Positions 13,672 through 25,228 of a stretch of DNA of 64,000 nucleotides are shown here, one piece after another. Within the stretch, counting starts at the first letter, position 1. Every line of letters begins with the position of its first letter. The position numbers were made by a program, and so were the translations under genes. This stretch comes from Pseudomonas maioricensis (lineage in GTDB: Bacteria; Pseudomonadota; Gammaproteobacteria; Pseudomonadales; Pseudomonadaceae): the NCBI RefSeq assembly GCF_022790535.1, contig NZ_LOHG01000004.1, forward strand, positions 393,890 to 457,889, written 5' to 3'. Below the pieces are notes generated by a model that was not told the DNA's origin, made no database searches, and saw only the letters and a program-made list of their open reading frames with translations.

Positions 13672-14697
13672 TCACAACATCACCGGCGCCCGCTCGCACA
13701 GCGTGTTCAGTTGCGCAGCCCAGTTCGGGTCGTCATTCAGGCACGGTATAAGCACCAGCTCCTCTCCCCCAGCAGCCTTGAACTGTTCAGCGCCGCGATC
13801 ACCGATTTCCTCCAGCGTCTCGATGCAATCGGCGACGAACGCCGGGCACATCACCAGCAGCTTCTTCACGCCCTGTGCGGCCAACTCCTCAAGGCGCGCT
13901 TCGGTGTAGGGTTCGATCCATTTCGCACGCCCCAGCCGCGACTGGAACGACACTGACCATTTACCATCGGCAATGCCCATCTGTTTGGCAAACACCGCTG
14001 CCGAGCGCAGACACTGTGCGCGATAGCAGGTGGCGAGTACTTCCGGCGAAGCGTTCTTGCAGCAGTCAGCATCCTTGAAGCAATGATTGCCGGTCGGATC
14101 AAGCTTGGTCAGGTGCCGCTCGGGCAAACCATGGAAGCTCAGCAGCAGGTGATCATGAGGCTGTTCAAGGTGCGGCTTCACACTTGCAACCAAAGCATCG
14201 ATGTATTCGGGCTGATCATAAAAAGCCTGTAATACCGAAAACGTCACGTTCAGTGACCTGGCCTTTACAACCCGTTTGGCCTCTTCGATCACCGTCGTCA
14301 CCGTGCTGTCGGCGAACTGCGGATACAGCGGCGCCAGGGTGATCTTGCTGATGCCTTGCGCAGCCAGTCGAGTGAGCACGGTTTCAATGGAAGGCTCGCC
14401 GTAACGCATCGCCAACTCGACGGGCCCGTGGCTCCACTCTTTGCTCATGGCTTGCTGCAGACGCTTGCTCAACACCACCAGAGGCGACCCTTCATCCCAC
14501 CAGATGGAAGCGTAGGCATGCGCGGATTGCTCAGGGCGCTTGATCAGGATCAAAGACACCAACAGTCGGCGAACCGGCCACGGCAAATCAATGACGTAGG
14601 GGTCCATCAGGAACTGGTTGAGATAACGGCGAACATCAGCCACAGACGTGGAGGCTGGTGAACCCAGGTTGACCAGCAACAGCGCGTGATCGGTCAT
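13672..14697 (-). CDS. hemH: ferrochelatase
   Basis: Inserts ferrous iron into protoporphyrin IX, the last step of heme synthesis. The 341-residue protein shows the active-site [12 protein letters not shown] near residue 180 and the C-terminal [20 protein letters not shown] block. AGGAT seven bases before the ATG at 14697 fits; a longer form from 14802 has no support. Just downstream of the TIGR01777 epimerase gene on the same strand, 13 bases apart, so probably co-transcribed. Confidence 0.95.
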
Positions 14698-14710
14698 GCA
14701 ACATCCTATT

Positions 14711-15613
14711 TCAGTGACGGCCGAGGAAATCGTCCAGGGCAGCGTGCAGTTCGGTAAACCGGAATGTGAAACCCGCCTCTTCCAGGCGAGCAGGTCGAGC
14801 ACGCTGACCGCCCAACAGCAAAACAGACAATTCGCCTAACAGGATTTTCAAAGCCAGTGCAGGCAACGGCATGAATGCAGGGCGATGCAGAACACCTGCT
14901 AGCGTCTTGGCAAACTCATGATTGCGGACCGGGTGGGGTGCGCAGAGATTATACGGACCTTGTGCATCACTCTTGTGCAACAGAAAATCAATCGCAGCGA
15001 TTTGGTCTTTGATGTGTATCCACGGCATCCACTGCCTGCCGTTACCGATAGGCCCGCCCATACCGAATTTGAACGGCGGTAGCAGACGCTGCAACATTCC
15101 GCCGTCCCCGGAGAGCACCAGGCCGGTTCGAATGATCACCACCCGGACACCCTGAGCTTCGGCTCGCTGCGCAGTTTCTTCCCAGGCACCACACAGGTGA
15201 CTGGCGAAATCCTCTTTGACAGGCTGCGACGTTTCATCCAGTTCACGCTCGCCCCCATCACCGTACCAACCCACCGCCGAACCACTGATCAGTACCTGCG
15301 GCTTCTGCGCCCGCGACTCAAACCAGGCCAGCAATTGCTCAGTCAAACCAATGCGACTGTCCCACAACTGAGTTCTGCGCTTACGCGTCCAGGGCCGGTC
15401 AGCGATCGGCGCACCGGCAAGGTTGATGACCGCATCGAGCGGCTGTTCATTCAGCTCGCTGAGCTGGGCAACCCCTCGAACAGCACTGCCACACAGCTTC
15501 GGAACGTCATGAGGTCTGCGACTCCAGACCGTGACCTGATGACCCTGTTGCGTCCAGAGCTGGCAAAGCTGCCGCCCTATCAAACCAGTACCGCCGGTCA
15601 GCAATATGTGCAT
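14711..15613 (-). CDS. TIGR01777 family epimerase (YfcH/SDR39U1-like)
   Basis: Atypical short-chain dehydrogenase of 300 residues. The NAD(P)-binding motif [13 protein letters not shown] is at residues 4-16, the [14 protein letters not shown] stretch near 64-77 and the [13 protein letters not shown] active-site region near 111-123. The C-terminal extension with [12 protein letters not shown] and [14 protein letters not shown] is typical of DUF1731. AGGAAA precedes the ATG. Substrate unknown. In several bacteria this gene lies near heme or photolyase genes, as here. Confidence 0.9.
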
Positions 15614-15835: not shown

Positions 15836-15859
15836 TATACCGAAAAACAATATTGTACA
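15836..15859. promoter_or_regulatory. LitR/PplR-type operator candidate before the renalase gene (imperfect)
   Basis: TATACC at 15836 and TGTACA at 15854 are separated by exactly 12 bases, matching the T(G/A)TACA-N12-TGTA(C/T)A pattern I recall for P. putida PplR sites, with one mismatch in the left half. The site lies about 50 bases upstream of the renalase ATG and could also influence the divergent epimerase gene. Confidence 0.6.
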
Positions 15860-15867
15860 GGTTTTAA

Positions 15868-17105
<1,238 letters not shown>

Positions 17106-17276: not shown

Positions 17277-17300
17277 TGTACAAACCATTTGACTTGTACA
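17277..17300. promoter_or_regulatory. LitR/PplR-type operator 1 of the photolyase operon
   Basis: Perfect TGTACA-N12-TGTACA. It covers the putative -35 hexamer TTGACT (17289-17294), as expected for a repressor site. Confidence 0.75.
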
Positions 17301-17316
17301 CCGCTGAACCTATGAT
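17289..17316 (+). promoter_or_regulatory. sigma-70-like promoter of the ybgA-litR-phr operon
   Basis: TTGACT (17289-17294) and TATGAT (17311-17316) are separated by 16 bases, close to consensus. The promoter is bracketed by the two palindromic operators. Confidence 0.65.
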
Positions 17317-17326
17317 GAACCAACGT

Positions 17327-17350
17327 TGTACAGAAAATTAACTCTGTACA
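17327..17350. promoter_or_regulatory. LitR/PplR-type operator 2 of the photolyase operon
   Basis: Second perfect TGTACA-N12-TGTACA, exactly 50 bases downstream of operator 1 (start to start) and 20 bases before the ATG at 17370. It lies just after the putative transcription start. Confidence 0.75.
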
Positions 17351-17369: not shown

Positions 17370-18332
17370 ATGCTCTCACCGGCAGTCCATAAACCGAAAC
17401 TCGGCATCAGTGCCTGCCTCATGGGCGATGAGGTGCGGTTCAATGGGGGTCATAAAGAATCCCATTTATGCACCCGCGAGCTGACCGAGTACTTCGAATT
17501 TGTCACCGCCTGTCCTGAAGTGGCGATCGGCATGGGCATCCCTCGTGAACCGATTCGTCTGGTCGGCGACGCGCAAAGTCCTCAAGCCGTCGGCACCGTT
17601 AACAAAGATCTCAATGTTACTCAGTCGCTGGCCGACTACGGCGTCAAGATGGCGCAAGAGTTGGGCGATATCTGCGGCTACATCTTTATGCAGAAGTCGC
17701 CGTCCTGTGGCCTGGAGCGCGTCAAGGTCTACACGGAAAATGGCGCCCCCGTTGAGGGGGGAGGACGCGGGATTTATGCCCAGGCGTTTTGCGAGCGCCA
17801 CCCAAACCTTCCGGTAGAAGAAGACGGCCGCCTGAATGACGCGGTGCTGCGCGAAAACTTCATTACCCGGGTGTTTGCCTACGCCGCCTGGCAGGAACTG
17901 CTCAAGGCTGGCATTACCCGCCGCAGCCTGACCGAATTTCACTCGCGCTATAAATATCAGCTCATGGCCAACGACCCCGTGCAATACAAAGCGCTGGGCA
18001 GCCTGCTGGGCAACATGGGCCGCAGTGACCCGAACGACATCGCGCCGCGCTATTTCAGTGACCTGATGAGCGCCCTGAAAAAGCCCGCCACTCGCCGTAC
18101 TCACACCAATGTCCTGCAGCACATCAGTGGCTACCTGAGGCAAACCCTCAGTAGCGCTGACAAGCAGGAAATTCAGCAACTCATTGCGCAGTACCACCAA
18201 GGCATCGTGCCGTTGATCGTGCCGCTGACGCTGCTCAAACACCACTTCCGCCAGCACCCGGATCCGTATGTAGCCCTGCAGGTTTACATGCAGCCTCATC
18301 CGGAAAATCTCAGCCTGCGAAATGCGATCTAA
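17370..18332 (+). CDS. DUF523 and DUF1722 domain protein (YbgA-like)
   Basis: 320-residue cytosolic protein. The N-terminal DUF523 half (about 1-155) has conserved cysteines in GISACLMG, TACPEV and MQKSPSCGLERVKVY; the C-terminal DUF1722 half (about 190-305) is the YbgA domain with YKYQLMAND and YLRQTLSSADKQ. E. coli ybgA is also joined to phr. AGAGG six bases before the ATG. First gene of a nine-gene operon under two LitR-type operators. The activity is not established to my knowledge; the cysteines suggest metal or cluster binding. Confidence 0.9.
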   Translation: MLSPAVHKPKLGISACLMGDEVRFNGGHKESHLCTRELTEYFEFVTACPEVAIGMGIPREPIRLVGDAQSPQAVGTVNKDLNVTQSLADYGVKMAQELGDICGYIFMQKSPSCGLERVKVYTENGAPVEGGGRGIYAQAFCERHPNLPVEEDGRLNDAVLRENFITRVFAYAAWQELLKAGITRRSLTEFHSRYKYQLMANDPVQYKALGSLLGNMGRSDPNDIAPRYFSDLMSALKKPATRRTHTNVLQHISGYLRQTLSSADKQEIQQLIAQYHQGIVPLIVPLTLLKHHFRQHPDPYVALQVYMQPHPENLSLRNAI

Positions 18333-18335
18333 CCC

Positions 18336-19274
18336 ATGACCGACACTCTGATCAAGATCCCCGCACCCGAGCAAAACAGCGAAGAAACCGCTGCGGAAGG
18401 CAACTGGCTGCCCATCCGCGAGGTGGCTCGCCAGACCGGCGTCAACGCCGTCACACTGCGGGCCTGGGAGCGACGCTATGGGCTCATCGTGCCGCACCGC
18501 ACAGCCAAAGGTCATCGGTTGTATTCCCACGAGCACGTCCTGCGAGTGTTGAATATCCTGACCTGGCTTAATCGTGGTGTATCGGTCAGCCAGGTCAAAA
18601 ACCTTATCGACAGCCGTCAGCCCGACACCGGCATCGCCGGTAACGACTGGGACGACCTGCGCCAGAACCTGATCAAATCCATTGCTGAACTGGCCGAGCG
18701 CCGTGTCGACGACCTCTTCAACCAAGCCATGTCGCTCTACCCGCCACGCACGGTCTGCGAGCAACTCCTGCTACCACTGCTGGCTGAGCTGGAGTTCCGC
18801 TGGCAGGGGCAATTTGGCGGGCAGATGGAGCGTGTGTTCTTTTACTCATGGCTGCGCAGCAAACTGGGCGCCCGTATCTACCACAACAACCGTCAACTCA
18901 GCGGTACGCCGGTCCTGCTGGTGAACCACTCCGACCTGCCGCTGGAACCGCAGTTGTGGCTGAGCGCCTGGCTGATCAGCAATGCTGATTGCCCGGTGGA
19001 AGTTTTCGACTGGCCACTACCCAACGGCGAACTGGCACTGGCGGCCGAACACCTCAAGCCGCGGGCAGTGCTGCTCTACTCGAGCAAAGCGTTGCATCAC
19101 GGGCAACTCCCGAAACTGCTGAGCAACGTCCAGTGCCCGACCGTGCTGGCTGGCGCCTGTGTGCGTATTCATTGCGACGACCTCGCCATGACCATCAACA
19201 AGATACAAGGGCTGCATCTGGCTGAAGACCCGCTCGGCGCACTCGCCGCCTTGCAGCTACTGGACCTTCTCTAA
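18336..19274 (+). CDS. MerR-family regulator of the LitR/CarH class, lacking B12 ligands
   Basis: 312-residue DNA-binding protein. The MerR helix-turn-helix is at about 25-95, with WERRYGL and a GHRLYSHEHV wing typical of LitR/CarH. A four-helix-bundle segment (about 110-180) and a Rossmann-like C-terminal domain follow. CarH binds adenosylcobalamin through W-x9-EH and an upstream HxxG-type histidine motif; here the first reads W-x8-ER (RWQGQFGGQMER) and the second is absent. It therefore looks like the class II LitR (PplR) type. Starts three bases after the ybgA-like stop, 10 bases before phr. Confidence 0.85.
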   Translation: MTDTLIKIPAPEQNSEETAAEGNWLPIREVARQTGVNAVTLRAWERRYGLIVPHRTAKGHRLYSHEHVLRVLNILTWLNRGVSVSQVKNLIDSRQPDTGIAGNDWDDLRQNLIKSIAELAERRVDDLFNQAMSLYPPRTVCEQLLLPLLAELEFRWQGQFGGQMERVFFYSWLRSKLGARIYHNNRQLSGTPVLLVNHSDLPLEPQLWLSAWLISNADCPVEVFDWPLPNGELALAAEHLKPRAVLLYSSKALHHGQLPKLLSNVQCPTVLAGACVRIHCDDLAMTINKIQGLHLAEDPLGALAALQLLDLL

Positions 19275-19283
19275 GGAATAAAC

Positions 19284-20732
19284 ATGCAACTGCTATGGCT
19301 GCGCAGCGACTTGCGCGTTCACGACAATACCGCCCTCAGCGCTGCCATGGAGCAGGGTCCTGTTGTGGCTTTGTATCTGATCAGCCCCGGTCAATGGCTC
19401 AGCCATGACGATGCGCCGTGCAAAGTGGATTTCTGGCTGCGCAACCTGGTGGAACTGCAAAAAGCGCTGGGTGCACTGAACGTACCGTTGCTGATTCGCG
19501 TGGCCGACAGTTGGGATCAAGCACCGCAAGTACTGCTGGAGCTGTGTCGCGAACACGATATCCAGACCGTACATGCCAACGAAGAATATGGCATCAACGA
19601 GACCCGCCGGGATGAAGCCGTTGCCGATGCCCTTCAAGACGCCGACATTCAGTGGCGCAGCTATCTGGATCAGTTGTTCTTCAAACCCGGCAGCGTACTG
19701 ACCAAAACGGGTACCTATTTCCAGGTCTTCAGCCAGTTCCGCAAAGTCTGCTACGCCCGCATGCATCAGGCCATGCCGCCGCTGGTTCGCCTCCCTGAAC
19801 CGCAGACTCCGCTGGACATAAAGAGTGATCACATCCCCGAACAGGTAAAGGGTTTCCCAACGCCCACCCAGGCACTTCAAGCCTTGTGGCCTGCGGGTGA
19901 AGACGAAGCCAGTCGGCGTCTGGCCGAGTTCAGCGATGAGCAGATCGACTATTACCGCTCCGAACGTGACTTCCCGGCCAAACCTGGCACCAGCCAGCTC
20001 TCGGCCTACCTGGCCGCAGGCGTGATATCGCCGCGCCAATGTTTGCACGCGGCCCTGAGCAGCAATCAGGGTGAATTCGAAACAGGCAGCGTCGGCGCCG
20101 TCACCTGGATCAACGAGCTGCTGTGGCGCGAATTCTACAAACACATTCTGGTTGGCTTCCCACGCGTCTCACGCCACCGTGCTTTCCGCCCGGAAACCGA
20201 AGCGCTGAAATGGCGGGACGCGCCAGAAGAGTTGGCCGCGTGGCAAGAAGCACGCACCGGTCTGCCGATCATCGACGCCGCCATGCGCCAATTGCTCGAC
20301 ACCGGCTGGATGCACAACCGCCTGCGCATGGTCGTAGCAATGTTCCTGACCAAAAACCTGCTGATTGACTGGCGTGAAGGCGAACGCTTCTTCATGAAAC
20401 ACCTGATCGATGGTGATCTGGCCGCCAACAACGGTGGGTGGCAGTGGAGCTCTTCTACAGGCACGGACTCATCGCCCTACTTCCGGATTTTCAATCCGCT
20501 GTCGCAGTCGGAAAAATTCGACCCTGAAGGACGCTTCCTGAAGCAGTGGTTGCCGGAACTGGCCGAGCTCAACAAGAAAGAAGTCCACAACCCCGCCGCT
20601 GCCGGTGGCTTGTTCGGCGTTGCCAACTATCCAAAACCTATTGTCGACCTGAGCAGCAGTCGCGCCCGTGCCTTGGCCGCGTTCAAGGCCCTGCCTCATC
20701 GCCAGCCCGCAGCCGGAGTCGCTGATGACTGA
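19284..20732 (+). CDS. phr: deoxyribodipyrimidine photolyase
   Basis: Blue-light-driven repair of cyclobutane pyrimidine dimers, 482 residues, class I. The N-terminal antenna-binding Rossmann domain starts LLWLRSDLRVHDNTALSAAM. The C-terminal FAD domain has GWMHNRLRMVVAMFLTKNLL near residue 338 and DGDLAANNGGWQWSSSTGTD near 375, including the tryptophan and asparagine positions of active photolyases. AAGGA precedes the ATG. The next gene starts inside its last codons. Confidence 0.97.
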   Translation: MQLLWLRSDLRVHDNTALSAAMEQGPVVALYLISPGQWLSHDDAPCKVDFWLRNLVELQKALGALNVPLLIRVADSWDQAPQVLLELCREHDIQTVHANEEYGINETRRDEAVADALQDADIQWRSYLDQLFFKPGSVLTKTGTYFQVFSQFRKVCYARMHQAMPPLVRLPEPQTPLDIKSDHIPEQVKGFPTPTQALQALWPAGEDEASRRLAEFSDEQIDYYRSERDFPAKPGTSQLSAYLAAGVISPRQCLHAALSSNQGEFETGSVGAVTWINELLWREFYKHILVGFPRVSRHRAFRPETEALKWRDAPEELAAWQEARTGLPIIDAAMRQLLDTGWMHNRLRMVVAMFLTKNLLIDWREGERFFMKHLIDGDLAANNGGWQWSSSTGTDSSPYFRIFNPLSQSEKFDPEGRFLKQWLPELAELNKKEVHNPAAAGGLFGVANYPKPIVDLSSSRARALAAFKALPHRQPAAGVADD

Positions 20733-21147
20733 TTTCCTGCAGCGCTTTGCTCATGAGTTTGCCGCTCTGGACAAGAACAGTCTTGACCGGCTCGGCGAGC
20801 TGTACAGCGAGGACGTGCAGTTCACCGATCCGCTGCATCAGATTCATGGGCTGCCGCAAATGCGCCGCTACTTCGCCGATCTGTACGCCAACGTGACCGA
20901 TCTGCGTTTCGACTTCCATGGTTTTGACCAGGTCAGTGAAGGCAACGGTTATTTACGCTGGACCATGAGCTACTCACATCCGCGCCTTGTCAGCGGTAAA
21001 ACCATTCAGGTTGAGGGCTGCTCGCATCTGCTCTGGCGCGACAAGGTTTATCAACATCGCGATTATTTCGACGCGGGCGCTTTGTTGTATGAGCACTTGC
21101 CGATCATGGGCCAGCTCATCGGCTGGCTGAAAAGGAGACTGGGATGA
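20725..21147 (+). CDS. SnoaL/NTF2-like protein
   Basis: 140-residue protein of the cone-shaped SnoaL/NTF2 fold: YSEDVQFTDPLHQIHG near residue 30, a GNGYLRWTMSYSHP strand and a WRDKVYQHRDYFDAGALLYE end. GGAG lies seven bases before an ATG that overlaps phr by eight bases, which fixes the start. Members of this family act as isomerases, hydratases or binding proteins for small hydrophobic substrates. Its place in the lipid-modifying operon suggests a lipid-related substrate, but this is inference. Confidence 0.85.
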   Translation: MTDFLQRFAHEFAALDKNSLDRLGELYSEDVQFTDPLHQIHGLPQMRRYFADLYANVTDLRFDFHGFDQVSEGNGYLRWTMSYSHPRLVSGKTIQVEGCSHLLWRDKVYQHRDYFDAGALLYEHLPIMGQLIGWLKRRLG

Positions 21148-21932
21148 GTAATCCGAACGTGCGACGTATCTGGTTGACCGGGGCCAGCAGTGGTATTGGT
21201 CTCGCGCTCGCTGAAGAGCTGCTCATCGCCGGTCACCATGTGGCACTCACGGCCCGGACGCTGCCCCCCCTTGAAGAGCTGGAGCGGCGCTTTCCCGGCC
21301 AGGTATTGCTCGCGCCGGGAGATTTGAACGACGGAGAGCAAATTACCGCCATCGGCGATCGCATCGCTCAGGAATGGGGCGCTCTGGACAGCGCGATCAT
21401 CAATGCCGGGACCTGCGAATACATCGACACCAATCACTTCGATGCTGCGCTGCTTGAACGAGTGGTCCGCACCAATCTGCTGGCCAGCTCTTATTGCGTG
21501 CAAGAGGCGTTGTTGCTGCTACGCAAAGGCAACAAGCCGCATCTGGTCGGCGTTTGCAGTTCGGTGACGTATCTGCCGCTGACCCGCAGCGAGGCCTACG
21601 GCGCGTCCAAGGCGGGTATGCGCTACCTTTTCGAATCCCTGCGGATTGATCTGGCCCACGAACACATTGACGTTACCGTCGTCAGCCCTGGCTTCGTTGA
21701 TACCCCGCTGACCGCCAAGAACGACTTCGCCATGCCCATGCGCTGGCCGGTCAAGAAAGCCGCGAAATATATTGCCGAACGCTTGCAGCGGAATCGTCGG
21801 CCCATGGAAATCGCCTTCCCCGGATTGTTCATCATGACCCTGCGGTTACTGGCGCTGCTACCCACCCGTGTGCAACTCGCGTTAGGAAAACGCATGGCCC
21901 GCTCAGCGGCCCAGACCAAGGATGCCCAATGA
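21144..21932 (+). CDS. short-chain dehydrogenase/reductase
   Basis: 262-residue classical SDR. The cofactor motif TGASSGIGLALAEEL is at residues 10-24, the NAG motif in IINAGTC, and the catalytic YGASKAG with an upstream serine (VCSSVTYLP). The C-terminus is hydrophobic, ending in MTLRLLALLPTRVQ, so membrane association is likely. AGGAGA precedes the ATG, which overlaps the SnoaL-like stop by four bases. The same SDR / FAD / DUF1365 / CFA order is known from photo-oxidative stress operons of alphaproteobacteria. Confidence 0.9.
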   Translation: MSNPNVRRIWLTGASSGIGLALAEELLIAGHHVALTARTLPPLEELERRFPGQVLLAPGDLNDGEQITAIGDRIAQEWGALDSAIINAGTCEYIDTNHFDAALLERVVRTNLLASSYCVQEALLLLRKGNKPHLVGVCSSVTYLPLTRSEAYGASKAGMRYLFESLRIDLAHEHIDVTVVSPGFVDTPLTAKNDFAMPMRWPVKKAAKYIAERLQRNRRPMEIAFPGLFIMTLRLLALLPTRVQLALGKRMARSAAQTKDAQ

Positions 21933-23176
21933 AAATCGCCATTATCGGCAGTGGTATCGCGGGCCTGACCAGCGCCTATTTGCTGAACCGCTCTCACGAC
22001 ATCACGGTGTTCGAGGCAACCGACTGGATTGGCGGGCATACCCATACCGTTGATGTACAGGTGAGCGGTCGCGATTACGCCATCGATACCGGTTTCATCG
22101 TGTTCAACGACTGGACCTATCCAAACTTCATTCGCCTGCTGGGTCAGCTCGGGGTCGCGTTCAAGCCTACCGAAATGAGCTTCTCCGTCAGCGACCCGAA
22201 AACCCGGACCGAATATAACGGTAATAACCTCAACAGCCTGTTCGCCCAGCGAAGCAACCTGCTGTCTCCAGGTTTCTGGGGCATGCTGCGCGACATTCTG
22301 CGTTTTAACCGTGAGGCACTGAGCGATCTGGAAAACCAGCGCATTGCTCAGGACACGACCTTGGGTGACTACTTGCACAGTCGGGATTACGGCACACGCT
22401 TCATTGAACACTACATCGTGCCCATGGGCGCGGCGATCTGGTCCATGTCCCTGGCAGACATGCTCGCATTTCCACTCCAGTTCTTTGTGCGCTTCTTCAA
22501 GAATCATGGTTTGTTGTCAGTCAGCAACCGGCCGCAGTGGTGCGTCATCGAAGGTGGTTCCAGCCGTTACATCGAGCCGTTGACCGCTTCGTTTGCCGAG
22601 CGGATTCGCCTGTCGTGCCCGGTCAATCGCGTTGAGCGGGATGCAGAGGGCGTGACCGTTCATAGCGCCGCAGGCATCGAGCGCTTCGACAAAGTCGTGT
22701 TCGCCTGTCACAGCGATCAGGCCCTGAAAATGCTCGCGCAACCGAGCGCAACCGAACGGGAAATCCTTGGTGCCCTGCCCTACGCCGAAAACGACGTGGT
22801 GCTGCATACCGACACGAGTCTGTTGCCCAAGCGACCGCAGGCCTGGGCCAGCTGGAACTACCGGCTCGGCGGTGGCGAGCAACAACTGGCCGCCGTGACT
22901 TACGACATGAACATCCTGCAGGGCATCGACAGCGAAACGACGTTCTGCGTCAGCCTCAATCAGACCCAGGCCATCGATCCGAACAAAATCCTCGCTCGTT
23001 ACCGCTACGCCCATCCGCAATACAGCCTGGCAGGCGTAGAGGCGCAGGCGCGCTGGTCCGAACTCGACGGTGTCAACCACACCTGGTTCTGCGGCGCGTA
23101 CTGGGCAAATGGTTTCCATGAAGACGGCGTGGTCAGCGGCCTGCGCGTCGCCTCGGCACTGGGTGAATCATTGTGA
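21929..23176 (+). CDS. FAD-dependent oxidoreductase of the amine-oxidase fold
   Basis: 415-residue flavoprotein with the FAD motif IAIIGSGIAGLTSAYLL at residues 3-19, then FEATDWIGGHTHTVDV and a C-terminal WFCGAYWANGFHEDGVVSG block. Closest in layout to the predicted NAD(P)/FAD-binding proteins that sit beside DUF1365 and cyclopropane synthase genes. One published candidate role for such a partner is desaturation of methylated fatty acids on the way to furan fatty acids in Rhodobacter; I infer only that it acts on membrane lipid acyl chains. Overlaps the SDR gene by four bases. Confidence 0.85.
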   Translation: MKIAIIGSGIAGLTSAYLLNRSHDITVFEATDWIGGHTHTVDVQVSGRDYAIDTGFIVFNDWTYPNFIRLLGQLGVAFKPTEMSFSVSDPKTRTEYNGNNLNSLFAQRSNLLSPGFWGMLRDILRFNREALSDLENQRIAQDTTLGDYLHSRDYGTRFIEHYIVPMGAAIWSMSLADMLAFPLQFFVRFFKNHGLLSVSNRPQWCVIEGGSSRYIEPLTASFAERIRLSCPVNRVERDAEGVTVHSAAGIERFDKVVFACHSDQALKMLAQPSATEREILGALPYAENDVVLHTDTSLLPKRPQAWASWNYRLGGGEQQLAAVTYDMNILQGIDSETTFCVSLNQTQAIDPNKILARYRYAHPQYSLAGVEAQARWSELDGVNHTWFCGAYWANGFHEDGVVSGLRVASALGESL

Positions 23177-23973
23177 ACAGCGCCCTGTATAGCGGCTGGA
23201 TCGCCCACCGGCGTTTTGCGCCGCGAGCCCACGATTTCCGCTATCGAATCGGCCTGCTGTATCTGGACCTGGACGAGCAAAGCGCTGTGTTGAATGTGTC
23301 GCCGGTCGCGGGCAACAGTCGCTGGGCACCGTTTTCGTTTCGCGAAACGGACTACCTGCGTGAGCAGACCCGACAAGGCATCCCGCTGATAGACGCTGTG
23401 CGCGAGCGAGTCAAGCAAGCCATCGGTCACGCCCCTGAGGGCAGGATATGCCTGCTGACCCAGGCGCGCAGTTGGGGCCTGGCGTTCAATCCGGTCAGCT
23501 TTTTTTATTGCTTCGAAGAAGACGGCACTCTGGCGGCAATTCTCTGTGAAGTGAGCAATACCCCGTGGCGCGAGCGTTACCACTATGTATTGCCGGCCGA
23601 TGGCGAGGGACATCAGCACTTCGCGGTGGCCAAAGCCTTTCACGTTTCACCGTTTCTGCCCCGCGATCTTGAGTACCGCATGAGTTTCAGTCCACCGGGT
23701 GAGCGTCTCGGCGTACACATGGCGGACTGGCAAGGCGAGCTGAAAATGTTCGACGCCACGCTCAACCTTGAACGTCAGGACCTGAACCGGGGCAACCTGC
23801 ATCGTTATCTGCTGGCCTTTCCATGGATGACCGCCAAGACCTGTCTGGCGATTTACTGGCAAGCCCTGCGTCTGCTTTTGAAACGTATTCCGATTTTTCC
23901 TCATCAGGCCGCTGACGGCGACTACCGCACTGCCGCCACGCAATTGAAGGGTCAACGCCATGAAAAGCAGTAG
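23173..23973 (+). CDS. DUF1365 domain protein
   Basis: 266 residues, starting from a GTG that overlaps the upstream TGA (ttGTGA). Contains the DUF1365 features YSGWIAHRRFAPRAHDFRYR, GLAFNPVSFFYCFEEDG and AKAFHVSPFLPRDLEYRM. The fold and reaction are unknown, but the gene is nearly always linked to an FAD oxidoreductase and a CFA-type methyltransferase, so a step in acyl-chain modification is likely. The CFA-like gene begins 14 bases before its end. Confidence 0.9.
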   Translation: MNSALYSGWIAHRRFAPRAHDFRYRIGLLYLDLDEQSAVLNVSPVAGNSRWAPFSFRETDYLREQTRQGIPLIDAVRERVKQAIGHAPEGRICLLTQARSWGLAFNPVSFFYCFEEDGTLAAILCEVSNTPWRERYHYVLPADGEGHQHFAVAKAFHVSPFLPRDLEYRMSFSPPGERLGVHMADWQGELKMFDATLNLERQDLNRGNLHRYLLAFPWMTAKTCLAIYWQALRLLLKRIPIFPHQAADGDYRTAATQLKGQRHEKQ

Positions 23974-25228
23974 CAGCAGTTTTTCGGCCAATCTGGGCAC
24001 CAACAGTTTGACGGCCAATATCCTGCGACGAGGTGTACTGCGTCAGCTTGCGCGGCTGCGTACCGGCCAACTGGTAGTCACTGAAGGTGGAGAACGCCAT
24101 GTGTTCGGCGCTGCCGGGTCACTGGTCCAGGGAGAAATCCAGGTTCTTGATTCCGCGGTCTGGGGCATGGTCGCCAGCAATGGCTCCATCGGCGCAGGCG
24201 AAGCGTACATCCACGGCTACTGGACTTCGCCCGACCTGACTGCGGTCATCAGGGTGTTCGTCAGTAATCTGGATGTACTGGATGCCATGGAGGGCGGCAT
24301 GGCGCGCCTGAGTCGTCCGTTCATTCAAGGGCTGCATTGGTTGAATCGCAATACCCGTGAAGGTTCGCAAAAAAACATCGCCGCTCACTACGATCTGGGC
24401 AATGAGCTGTTCGAACAGTTCCTGGATCCAACCATGATGTATTCCGCCGCGCAGTTCCTGACACCGGAAGACACGCTGGAACAGGCGCAACTGAACAAAC
24501 TGGAGCGTATCTGCCAGAAGCTGGGCCTCAAAGCCGATGATCATTTGCTGGAAATCGGCACCGGCTGGGGCAGCATGGCGATTTACGCCGCGCAGCACTA
24601 TGGCTGCAAAGTCACCACCACGACCCTCTCCAAAGAACAGTTTGCCTACACAGAGAAGCGCATCGCGACGCTAGGCCTGCAGGACAGAATCACCCTGCTG
24701 CTCAAGGATTATCGGGACCTCACCGGGCAGTTCGACAAGCTGGTGTCCATCGAAATGATCGAGGCAGTCGGTCACCGTTTTTTGCCCACCTACTTCAAGC
24801 AGTGTGCGCATTTGCTCAAGGACAATGGCCTGATGCTGCTGCAAGCCATCACCATCCGCGAGCAACGCTATGAACAAGCCAAACGCAGCGTCGACTTCAT
24901 CCAGCGCTACATCTTCCCCGGCGGAGCATTGCCCTCCGTGCACAAGATGCTGGAAATCGTGGGCCGCGATACCGACATGAATCTACTGCACATGGAAGAT
25001 TTCGGCCTGCATTACGCCCGCACCCTGCGCCTCTGGCACGACAACTTCAAGCACGCACACGGCAACCTCGCGGAATTGGGGTACGACGATTACTTCCTGC
25101 GACTCTGGGAGTTTTACCTGTGTTACTGCGAGGGCGGCTTCCTGGAACGCACCATTGGTACAGCGCAGTTGCTGCTGGCGAAACCTTGCGCAATGCCACA
25201 ACCATTGCTGGGCCGTTTCGATGCTTAA
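23960..25228 (+). CDS. cyclopropane-fatty-acyl-phospholipid synthase family methyltransferase
   Basis: 422-residue SAM-dependent enzyme that would transfer a methyl or methylene group to unsaturated acyl chains of membrane phospholipids. The SAM motif LLEIGTGWGSMAIYAAQHYG is at about 194-213, the EMIEAVGHRFLPTYF stretch near 263 and the IQRYIFPGGALPS active-site block near 313; the C-terminal YLCYCEGGFLERTIGTAQ is conserved. It may be a UfaM-type methyltransferase rather than a housekeeping Cfa, given its SDR / FAD / DUF1365 neighbours. Starts inside the DUF1365 gene. Confidence 0.9.
   Translation: MKSSSSSFSANLGTNSLTANILRRGVLRQLARLRTGQLVVTEGGERHVFGAAGSLVQGEIQVLDSAVWGMVASNGSIGAGEAYIHGYWTSPDLTAVIRVFVSNLDVLDAMEGGMARLSRPFIQGLHWLNRNTREGSQKNIAAHYDLGNELFEQFLDPTMMYSAAQFLTPEDTLEQAQLNKLERICQKLGLKADDHLLEIGTGWGSMAIYAAQHYGCKVTTTTLSKEQFAYTEKRIATLGLQDRITLLLKDYRDLTGQFDKLVSIEMIEAVGHRFLPTYFKQCAHLLKDNGLMLLQAITIREQRYEQAKRSVDFIQRYIFPGGALPSVHKMLEIVGRDTDMNLLHMEDFGLHYARTLRLWHDNFKHAHGNLAELGYDDYFLRLWEFYLCYCEGGFLERTIGTAQLLLAKPCAMPQPLLGRFDA

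Follow-up and report, generated by a model that had tools for sequence, protein, structure and literature searches.

A predicted class II LitR without the CarH cobalamin ligands in the rudS–litR–phrB operon of Pseudomonas maioricensis, and the distribution of short LOV proteins relative to it

Results

Organization of the litR locus and its promoter

The window (the whole stretch of 64,000 nucleotides of P. maioricensis DNA analysed here) contains a litR gene as the second gene in a run of nine, in the order TudS-DUF1722 (rudS type), litR, phrB, SnoaL-like, short-chain dehydrogenase (SDR), FAD oxidoreductase, DUF1365, cyclopropane-fatty-acid (CFA)-synthase-like and DUF2878. The litR open reading frame is exact, encodes 312 residues and begins three bases past the end of the preceding gene. 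The promoter region and the genes are as follows.

17277–17300, + strand: predicted operator Site 1, TGTACA-N12-TGTACA, overlapping the −35 hexamer (pattern search)
17289–17316, + strand: predicted sigma-70-type promoter, TTGACT-N16-TATGAT (hexamers identical to the published P6650)
17327–17350, + strand: predicted operator Site 2, TGTACA-N12-TGTACA (pattern search)
17370–18332, + strand: rudS, TudS-DUF1722, of the tRNA 4-thiouridine desulfidase type, heading the operon (Pfam; PMC11417400)
18336–19274, + strand: litR, putative class II LitR regulator of the PplR1/PmlR1 type, 312 aa
19284–20732, + strand: phrB, deoxyribodipyrimidine photolyase (NCBIfam PRK10674, 530.8 bits, cut-off 506)
20725–21147, + strand: SnoaL-like protein, start inferred (Pfam)
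21144–21932, + strand: short-chain dehydrogenase (Pfam)
21929–23176, + strand: FAD-dependent amine-oxidase-like oxidoreductase (Pfam)
23173–23973, + strand: DUF1365 protein (Pfam)
23960–25228, + strand: cyclopropane-fatty-acid-synthase-like methyltransferase, in the place of ufaM (Pfam; gene order as in PMC9758184)
25221–25742, + strand: DUF2878 protein, ninth gene, start inferred (Pfam)

The P. mendocina promoter P6650 likewise combines TTGACT-N16-TATGAT with two TGTACA-N12-TGTACA sites, one lying over the −35 hexamer and the other between the start site and the ATG, and a nine-gene light-induced polycistron with pmlR1, phrB, an SDR, an FAD oxidoreductase, ufaM and uncharacterised genes has been predicted in that species (PMC9758184). 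One TTGACT-N16-TATGAT was found in the window, and 0.9 was expected from shuffled sequences; since the hexamer pair is expected about once by chance, it is the agreement with P6650 that carries the weight. RudS takes 4-thiouridine out of tRNA, and PMC11417400 mentions an operon made up of PhrB, LitR and RudS.

Sites 1 and 2, two exact copies of the class II LitR operator pattern T(G/A)TACA-N12-TGTA(C/T)A at the rudS–litR–phrB promoter, were the sole exact matches to this pattern in the 5.9 Mb genome, and the backward control gave no exact match in the same 5.9 Mb. The neighbourhood was further examined for rudS, phrB and operators in 80 named related loci, the best 80 of 297 found. All 80 carried rudS upstream and phrB downstream on the same strand, together with an exact operator upstream, of which 52 loci had two. 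The −35 and −10 hexamers could be anchored in 78 of these loci, the hexamer pattern being missing in the other two (L026 and L084); 77 of the 78 have both sites when up to two mismatches are allowed, and 54 have an exact Site 1. In addition, a ferrochelatase gene lies on the opposite strand near the photolyase operon (13672–14802), a possible tie between porphyrin and light stress.

Domains and class of the window LitR

The protein encoded at 18336–19274 is divided as follows.

18411–18611, + strand: MerR helix-turn-helix (HTH) domain, residues 26–92 (Pfam MerR_1, 3.8e-18)
18660–18872, + strand: four-helix bundle, B12-binding_2-like, residues 109–179 (Pfam PF02607, 27.7 bits, cut-off 23)
18801–18833, + strand: W156-x8-E165-R166, altered W-x9-EH motif (alignments)
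18903–19259, + strand: predicted C-terminal Rossmann-like domain without the axial-histidine motif, about residues 190–308 (AlphaFold2 model, VIA-align, alignment)

The original prediction held that a LitR-type HTH with WERRYG and a helical bundle had been kept. WERRYG is indeed present, and Pfam matched both MerR_1 (E 3.8e-18) and B12-binding_2 (27.7 bits against a cut-off of 23), with no match to the Rossmann B12-binding domain at E ≤ 1. A MerR HTH and B12-binding_2 without a B12-binding match in Pfam is the domain combination of class II LitR, and PplR1 of P. putida KT2440 and PmlR1 of P. mendocina show the same combination. These two proteins also resemble the window LitR in gene order, operator and promoter hexamers, and it is on gene order and operators that orthology to them is proposed. 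The product thus appears to be a LitR/CarH-type MerR protein that fits the published class II LitR of the PplR1/PmlR1 type, and it adds a member to a kind already known.

E. coli MlrA and BluR are likewise MerR proteins, and the window LitR has a weak MlrA_C match (18.8 bits), but its score against the NCBIfam MlrA equivalog was 77.1 bits for a cut-off of 417. BluF, a BLUF protein and not a LOV protein, is the partner of BluR in E. coli. BluR is under the control of this separate blue-light protein (PMC9758184). As a further observation, C141 is invariant among the 42 window-type proteins, and 36 of them share C219. In a plasmid search, all matches were below 60% identity.

Replacement of the cobalamin ligands

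Thermus LitR/CarH are the nearest solved structures to the window LitR by sequence (profile E 2.7e-30). In the profile alignment with them, W156 aligns with the tryptophan of W-x9-EH, the E-H pair becomes R166-V167, and E165 stands one position early. The axial histidine is replaced by L203 and the glycine of its motif (D/E-x-H-x-x-G) by Q206. Across the four CarH ligand positions, H132 therefore corresponds to Q157, E141 to R166, H142 to V167 and H177 to L203; the CarH residue numbers and ligand roles are general background, H132 alone among these ligand residues being named in PDB titles. The change of W-x9-EH to W-x8-ER and the absence of the axial-histidine motif, both proposed from the sequence at the outset, were thus confirmed, and the differing residues support the accompanying claim that the B12 ligands have been lost. 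Furthermore, the score against the NCBIfam CarH equivalog was 69.8 bits for a cut-off of 400.

The replacements extend to the relatives. Among 47 aligned sequences, position 166 was R, Q, K or W and position 167 was V, T, L, A or I; position 157 was Q in 38, R in 7 and H in 2, and a histidine occupied position 203 in 2 rows. All rows with a histidine at 157 or 203 were PmlR2-like, and all 42 window-type rows held residues other than those of CarH at the positions of H132, E141, H142 and H177. Moreover, W-x8-E[RQ] was found in all 80 named related loci, the best 80 of 297 (76 with R, 4 with Q), which argues for a stable, conserved altered bundle and not for random decay.

Light-dependent derepression without B12 is known for the P. 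putida and P. mendocina proteins, and PplR-dependent light induction in P. putida needs no B12 (PMC9758184). By analogy with these relatives, the window LitR would be B12-independent. Direct B12 sensing by the window LitR was rejected as a candidate on the ligand residues and the published B12 independence. The reverse of the window-type pattern was seen in two PmlR2-like proteins (L122 and L125), which keep a histidine at the CarH axial position (GQCHELE and GQSHELE, respectively) and lack the tryptophan of W-x9-EH.

Predicted fold

The structure prediction was compared with CarH, as the original prediction had proposed. The AlphaFold2 model of the window LitR, built from the same 47 aligned sequences, had a mean pLDDT of 85.8, and its top Foldseek match was full-length CarH (5c8e_B, E 2.1e-13). 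VIA-align matched residues 103–311 to the cobalamin-binding domain of CarH, with Z 18.6 and 2.8 Å over 195 residues for 8c33_C and Z 18.4 and 2.7 Å over 197 residues for 5c8e_E. Photocobilins (8j2x, Z 19.6) and the AppA SCHIC domain (4heh, Z 17.4) matched about equally, and fold likeness by itself proves no function or ligand for the window LitR. In this model, the C-terminus adopts the fold of the CarH cobalamin-binding domain without its ligands. The window LitR is thus like the class I LitR/CarH of Thermus thermophilus (5c8d-f, 3whp) in its MerR HTH, its four-helix bundle and its modelled C-terminal fold, but differs from it in the ligand residues.

A short LOV protein beside a second class II LitR

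A genome search for short LOV genes, also proposed in the original prediction, found one 55 kb from the window litR (L008:6618-7064), encoding 148 residues with the adduct cysteine at position 53. Its best solved relatives include 7r5n, 7a6p and 3sw1, which we take to be Pseudomonas sensory-box LOV entries. The gene adjoins a second class II litR on the same contig, with one gene between them (L008:6618-8701). The product of this second litR is PmlR2-like, with 39% identity to the window LitR over the match, and the window LitR is the other paralog type. The order LOV, one gene, LitR is that of the published pmSB-LOV, one gene, pmlR2 arrangement of P. mendocina, whose operator type this genome also shares. 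The guess of a short LOV photosensor was therefore borne out in this genome, for a system already published (PMC9758184).

In P. mendocina, PmSB-LOV that has been exposed to light binds to the HTH part of PmlR2, halts DNA binding by PmlR2 in surface plasmon resonance (SPR) and relieves repression in vitro, and it requires Cys53. Gel shifts in the light gave a LOV–PmlR2–DNA complex and no release, the authors favouring the SPR result, and the two-hybrid signal between LOV and PmlR2 was light-independent. In P. putida, PplR-dependent genes remain constantly low in LOV knock-outs, and the three PplR proteins are reported as cooperative (all PMC9758184). Direct binding of LOV to the window LitR type was not found in the published accounts that our literature search returned.

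Distribution of LitR and short LOV in Pseudomonas

LitR and short LOV were surveyed in 298 Pseudomonas genomes, sampled evenly from a larger set of the genus. LitR matches were taken at E ≤ 1e-10, and short LOV was called present at a best E ≤ 1e-40 with the LOV of this genome as query; no best LOV E-value fell between 1.9e-32 and 8.7e-53. LitR scoring covered at most 7 candidates per genome, and the 24 genomes scored in full (17 of the 36 without short LOV) gave the same match numbers. A LitR match occurred in 295 of the 298 genomes and a short LOV in 262.

Two or more LitR matches were present in 254 of the 262 LOV-containing genomes. The other eight had one, which in six fell within the PmlR2 range (7e-42 to 6e-38). 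The 36 genomes without short LOV had one LitR in 31 cases, none in 3 and two in 2, LitR being retained in 33. In 30 of the 31 single-LitR genomes, the best E-value was 6.4e-75 or better, in the window-type range, the type being judged by E-value and in 15 also by the listed match (45–72% identity); the remaining genome (G275) had a PmlR2-like match. The absence of LOV is unsafe for G222, one of the two LOV-less genomes with two LitR, which is 73% complete. Moreover, the LOV gene lies within 0.9 kb of the PmlR2-like match here and in the five other genomes for which both positions were listed. Short LOV therefore tracks the PmlR2-type paralog, not the window LitR type. Our literature search found no published account of this co-occurrence across Pseudomonas.

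Among the 80 named genomes, the best 80 of 297, short LOV was absent from 21, including P. amygdali, P. cerasi, P. congelans, P. cichorii and the leaf commensal P. graminis, with an unsafe absence in L064, a 3.8 Mb metagenome assembly; L071 was counted as containing LOV on a partial match of 1.2e-43. Weaker LOV matches in the LOV-less named genomes lay mostly within frames of 450–850 residues, a length that would fit a LOV histidine kinase (LOV-HK), and one P. cichorii genome (L028) gave no LOV match. All 21 LOV-less loci retain the operator, rudS and phrB. Presence and absence of LOV changed seven times on the LitR tree, which is not a species tree, with L064 included. A single exact operator was found at 15 of the 21 LOV-less loci and 13 of the 59 LOV-containing loci. 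A link between Site 1 and LOV was considered and rejected, as both sites are present at ≤2 mismatches in 77 of 78 loci and the LOV groups are clades.

The original prediction had stated that a separate photosensor must exist or that the signal is not light itself. One is present here, but "must" proved too strong, as 33 of 36 LOV-less genomes keep LitR. With a lone LitR in the window-type range and no short LOV in 30 of the 298 genomes, short LOV is not the general partner or input of this type, and since operon and operator are intact at the named LOV-less loci, the window LitR type has another input there, or none. PA4659 is presumably the P. aeruginosa counterpart of the window LitR, and we found no signal for it in the accessible parts of the literature on PA4659. 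PMC8508746, citing Sumi 2020 (J. Bacteriol.), describes P. aeruginosa as without LOV proteins, so the existence of LOV-less species is at least partly in print.

Discussion

By this analysis, the window falls within a light-response system that has already been described, and the photosensor guessed from the sequence is present in the genome. We consider it very probable that a B12-free class II LitR represses the rudS–litR–phrB operon and that the short LOV lifts this repression in blue light, because the ligand residues differ, the model has a CarH-like fold, two perfect operators lie genome-wide only in this promoter, the hexamers and the nine-gene run agree with P. mendocina P6650, and a short LOV with Cys53 lies one gene from a second class II LitR. 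The window LitR would be a DNA-binding protein of the MerR type that lacks the cobalamin ligands of CarH; in the dark it would bind both TGTACA-N12-TGTACA operators and repress the operon, including its own gene. The light sensor in this genome would be the short LOV 55 kb away, which in blue light, with its Cys53-FMN adduct formed, would remove LitR from the DNA. This action may be direct, or may proceed through operators shared, or mixed oligomers formed, with the paralog. The output would comprise photolyase, tRNA desulfidase and a fatty-acid module, which presumably protect the cell from light damage. This model builds on the sequence, operators, synteny, partner genes and predicted fold observed here; we infer DNA binding, repression and light release by the window LitR from its relatives. 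Several points count against it: the biochemically demonstrated LOV effector is of the PmlR2 type and not of the window type, the gel-shift and two-hybrid results on LOV and PmlR2 are not uniform with the rest, LOV tracks the paralog, and 30 of 298 genomes have a lone LitR in the window-type range and no short LOV.

In a second explanation, the paralog is the light-released repressor and the window LitR is not a LOV effector; it shares the operators of the paralog and, itself induced by light, acts as a feedback brake by which the operon is reset or tuned. We regard this as a serious possibility, although one short of an even chance. Two or more LitR in 254 of 262 genomes with LOV and in 2 of 36 without, and the LOV gene within 0.9 kb of the PmlR2-like match in this genome and five others, are as it would have them, as is the position of the window litR inside its own operon. 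Consistently, light induces pmlR1 5.7–10.1 fold and pmlR2 1.4–1.5 fold in P. mendocina (PMC9758184). However, PmSB-LOV contacts the HTH of PmlR2, the part most alike between the two types, so that direct binding to the window type is plausible, and the three PplR proteins of P. putida are reported as cooperative (PMC9758184).

LOV and the PmlR2-type paralog co-occur, and the window LitR type, with its operon and operator, also occurs in genomes that lack both; a LitR in the range of this type is the sole LitR, without short LOV, in about one tenth of the sampled Pseudomonas genomes. It is possible, if doubtful, that the window LitR type has a signal other than short LOV and that a second input (another photoreceptor such as LOV-HK, a tetrapyrrole bound in the CarH-like fold, or redox) controls the photolyase/RudS operon. 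If so, short LOV and PmlR2 would be a detachable blue-light add-on. The input of LOV-less class II LitR is now a testable question in phyllosphere pseudomonads.

Applied as a full alternative, in which the window type has its own non-LOV signal (redox, another tetrapyrrole, LOV-HK or photo-oxidative stress) and control by LOV is added through the paralog where present, this explanation appears unlikely. It accords with the 30 lone window-range LitR in genomes without short LOV and with the 21 named LOV-less loci that retain operator, rudS and phrB. The matches to AppA SCHIC (Z 17.4) and photocobilins (Z 19.6) and the conserved cysteines (C141 in 42 of 42 rows, C219 in 36) also favour it, although a common fold shows no ligand and the cysteines may be structural. 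In P. cichorii JBC1, phr rose 1.4-fold after UV-C and 2.4-fold after subsequent blue light, 15 min of blue light alone being non-significant (PMC13274461), and two other P. cichorii genomes lack short LOV. However, a single 15-min blue exposure is weak evidence, and JBC1, which has a LOV-HK (PMC11231323), differs from the P. cichorii genomes searched.

Finally, it is extremely improbable that the window LitR binds AdoB12 in another way and senses light directly through B12, as class I CarH/LitR do: the CarH-like predicted fold and W156 are retained, and one passage in PMC11417400 terms class II LitR B12-dependent, contrary to PMC9758184, but the H132, E141, H142 and H177 positions hold other residues in 42 of 42 window-type rows, the CarH equivalog score is far under its cut-off (69.8 vs. 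400 bits), and PplR light induction is reported to have no B12 requirement (PMC9758184).

Candidate operators outside the operon

One further site was predicted near the operon.

15836–15859, + strand: predicted third operator, TATACC-N12-TGTACA, preceding the FAD oxidoreductase gene at 15907 (pattern search)

The site begins 71 bases upstream of the gene; read on the opposite strand, it gives the folM-type site TGTACA-N12-GGTATA (PMC9758184). The FAD oxidoreductase gene is present in 79 of the 80 named loci, of which one further locus was set aside. In all 78 loci examined, the site was found with at most two mismatches, with 2.15 expected from single-base shuffles, and in every one of the 60 loci listed, a site differing by one base from the PplR1 consensus lay at −70 to −73. 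Part of this conservation is shared descent, the loci being related. The FAD oxidoreductase at 15907 is likely a further member of the LitR regulon, as judged from this site.

With one mismatch allowed, the relaxed operator pattern gave 44 matches, counting the exact ones, and the backward control gave 29. One-mismatch sites are therefore near background, and exact sites alone were used; a wider regulon drawn from one-mismatch sites was rejected for the same reason. In 16 kb around the PmlR2-like gene, neither an operator with at most two mismatches (the best has three) nor the published folM-type site was found. Elsewhere in the genome, an exact relaxed site, TGTACC-N12-TGTACA, lies at G000:C11:112336-112359 (L130), about 140 bp upstream of an open reading frame that, judged by eye, we take to encode a HAD-like hydrolase.
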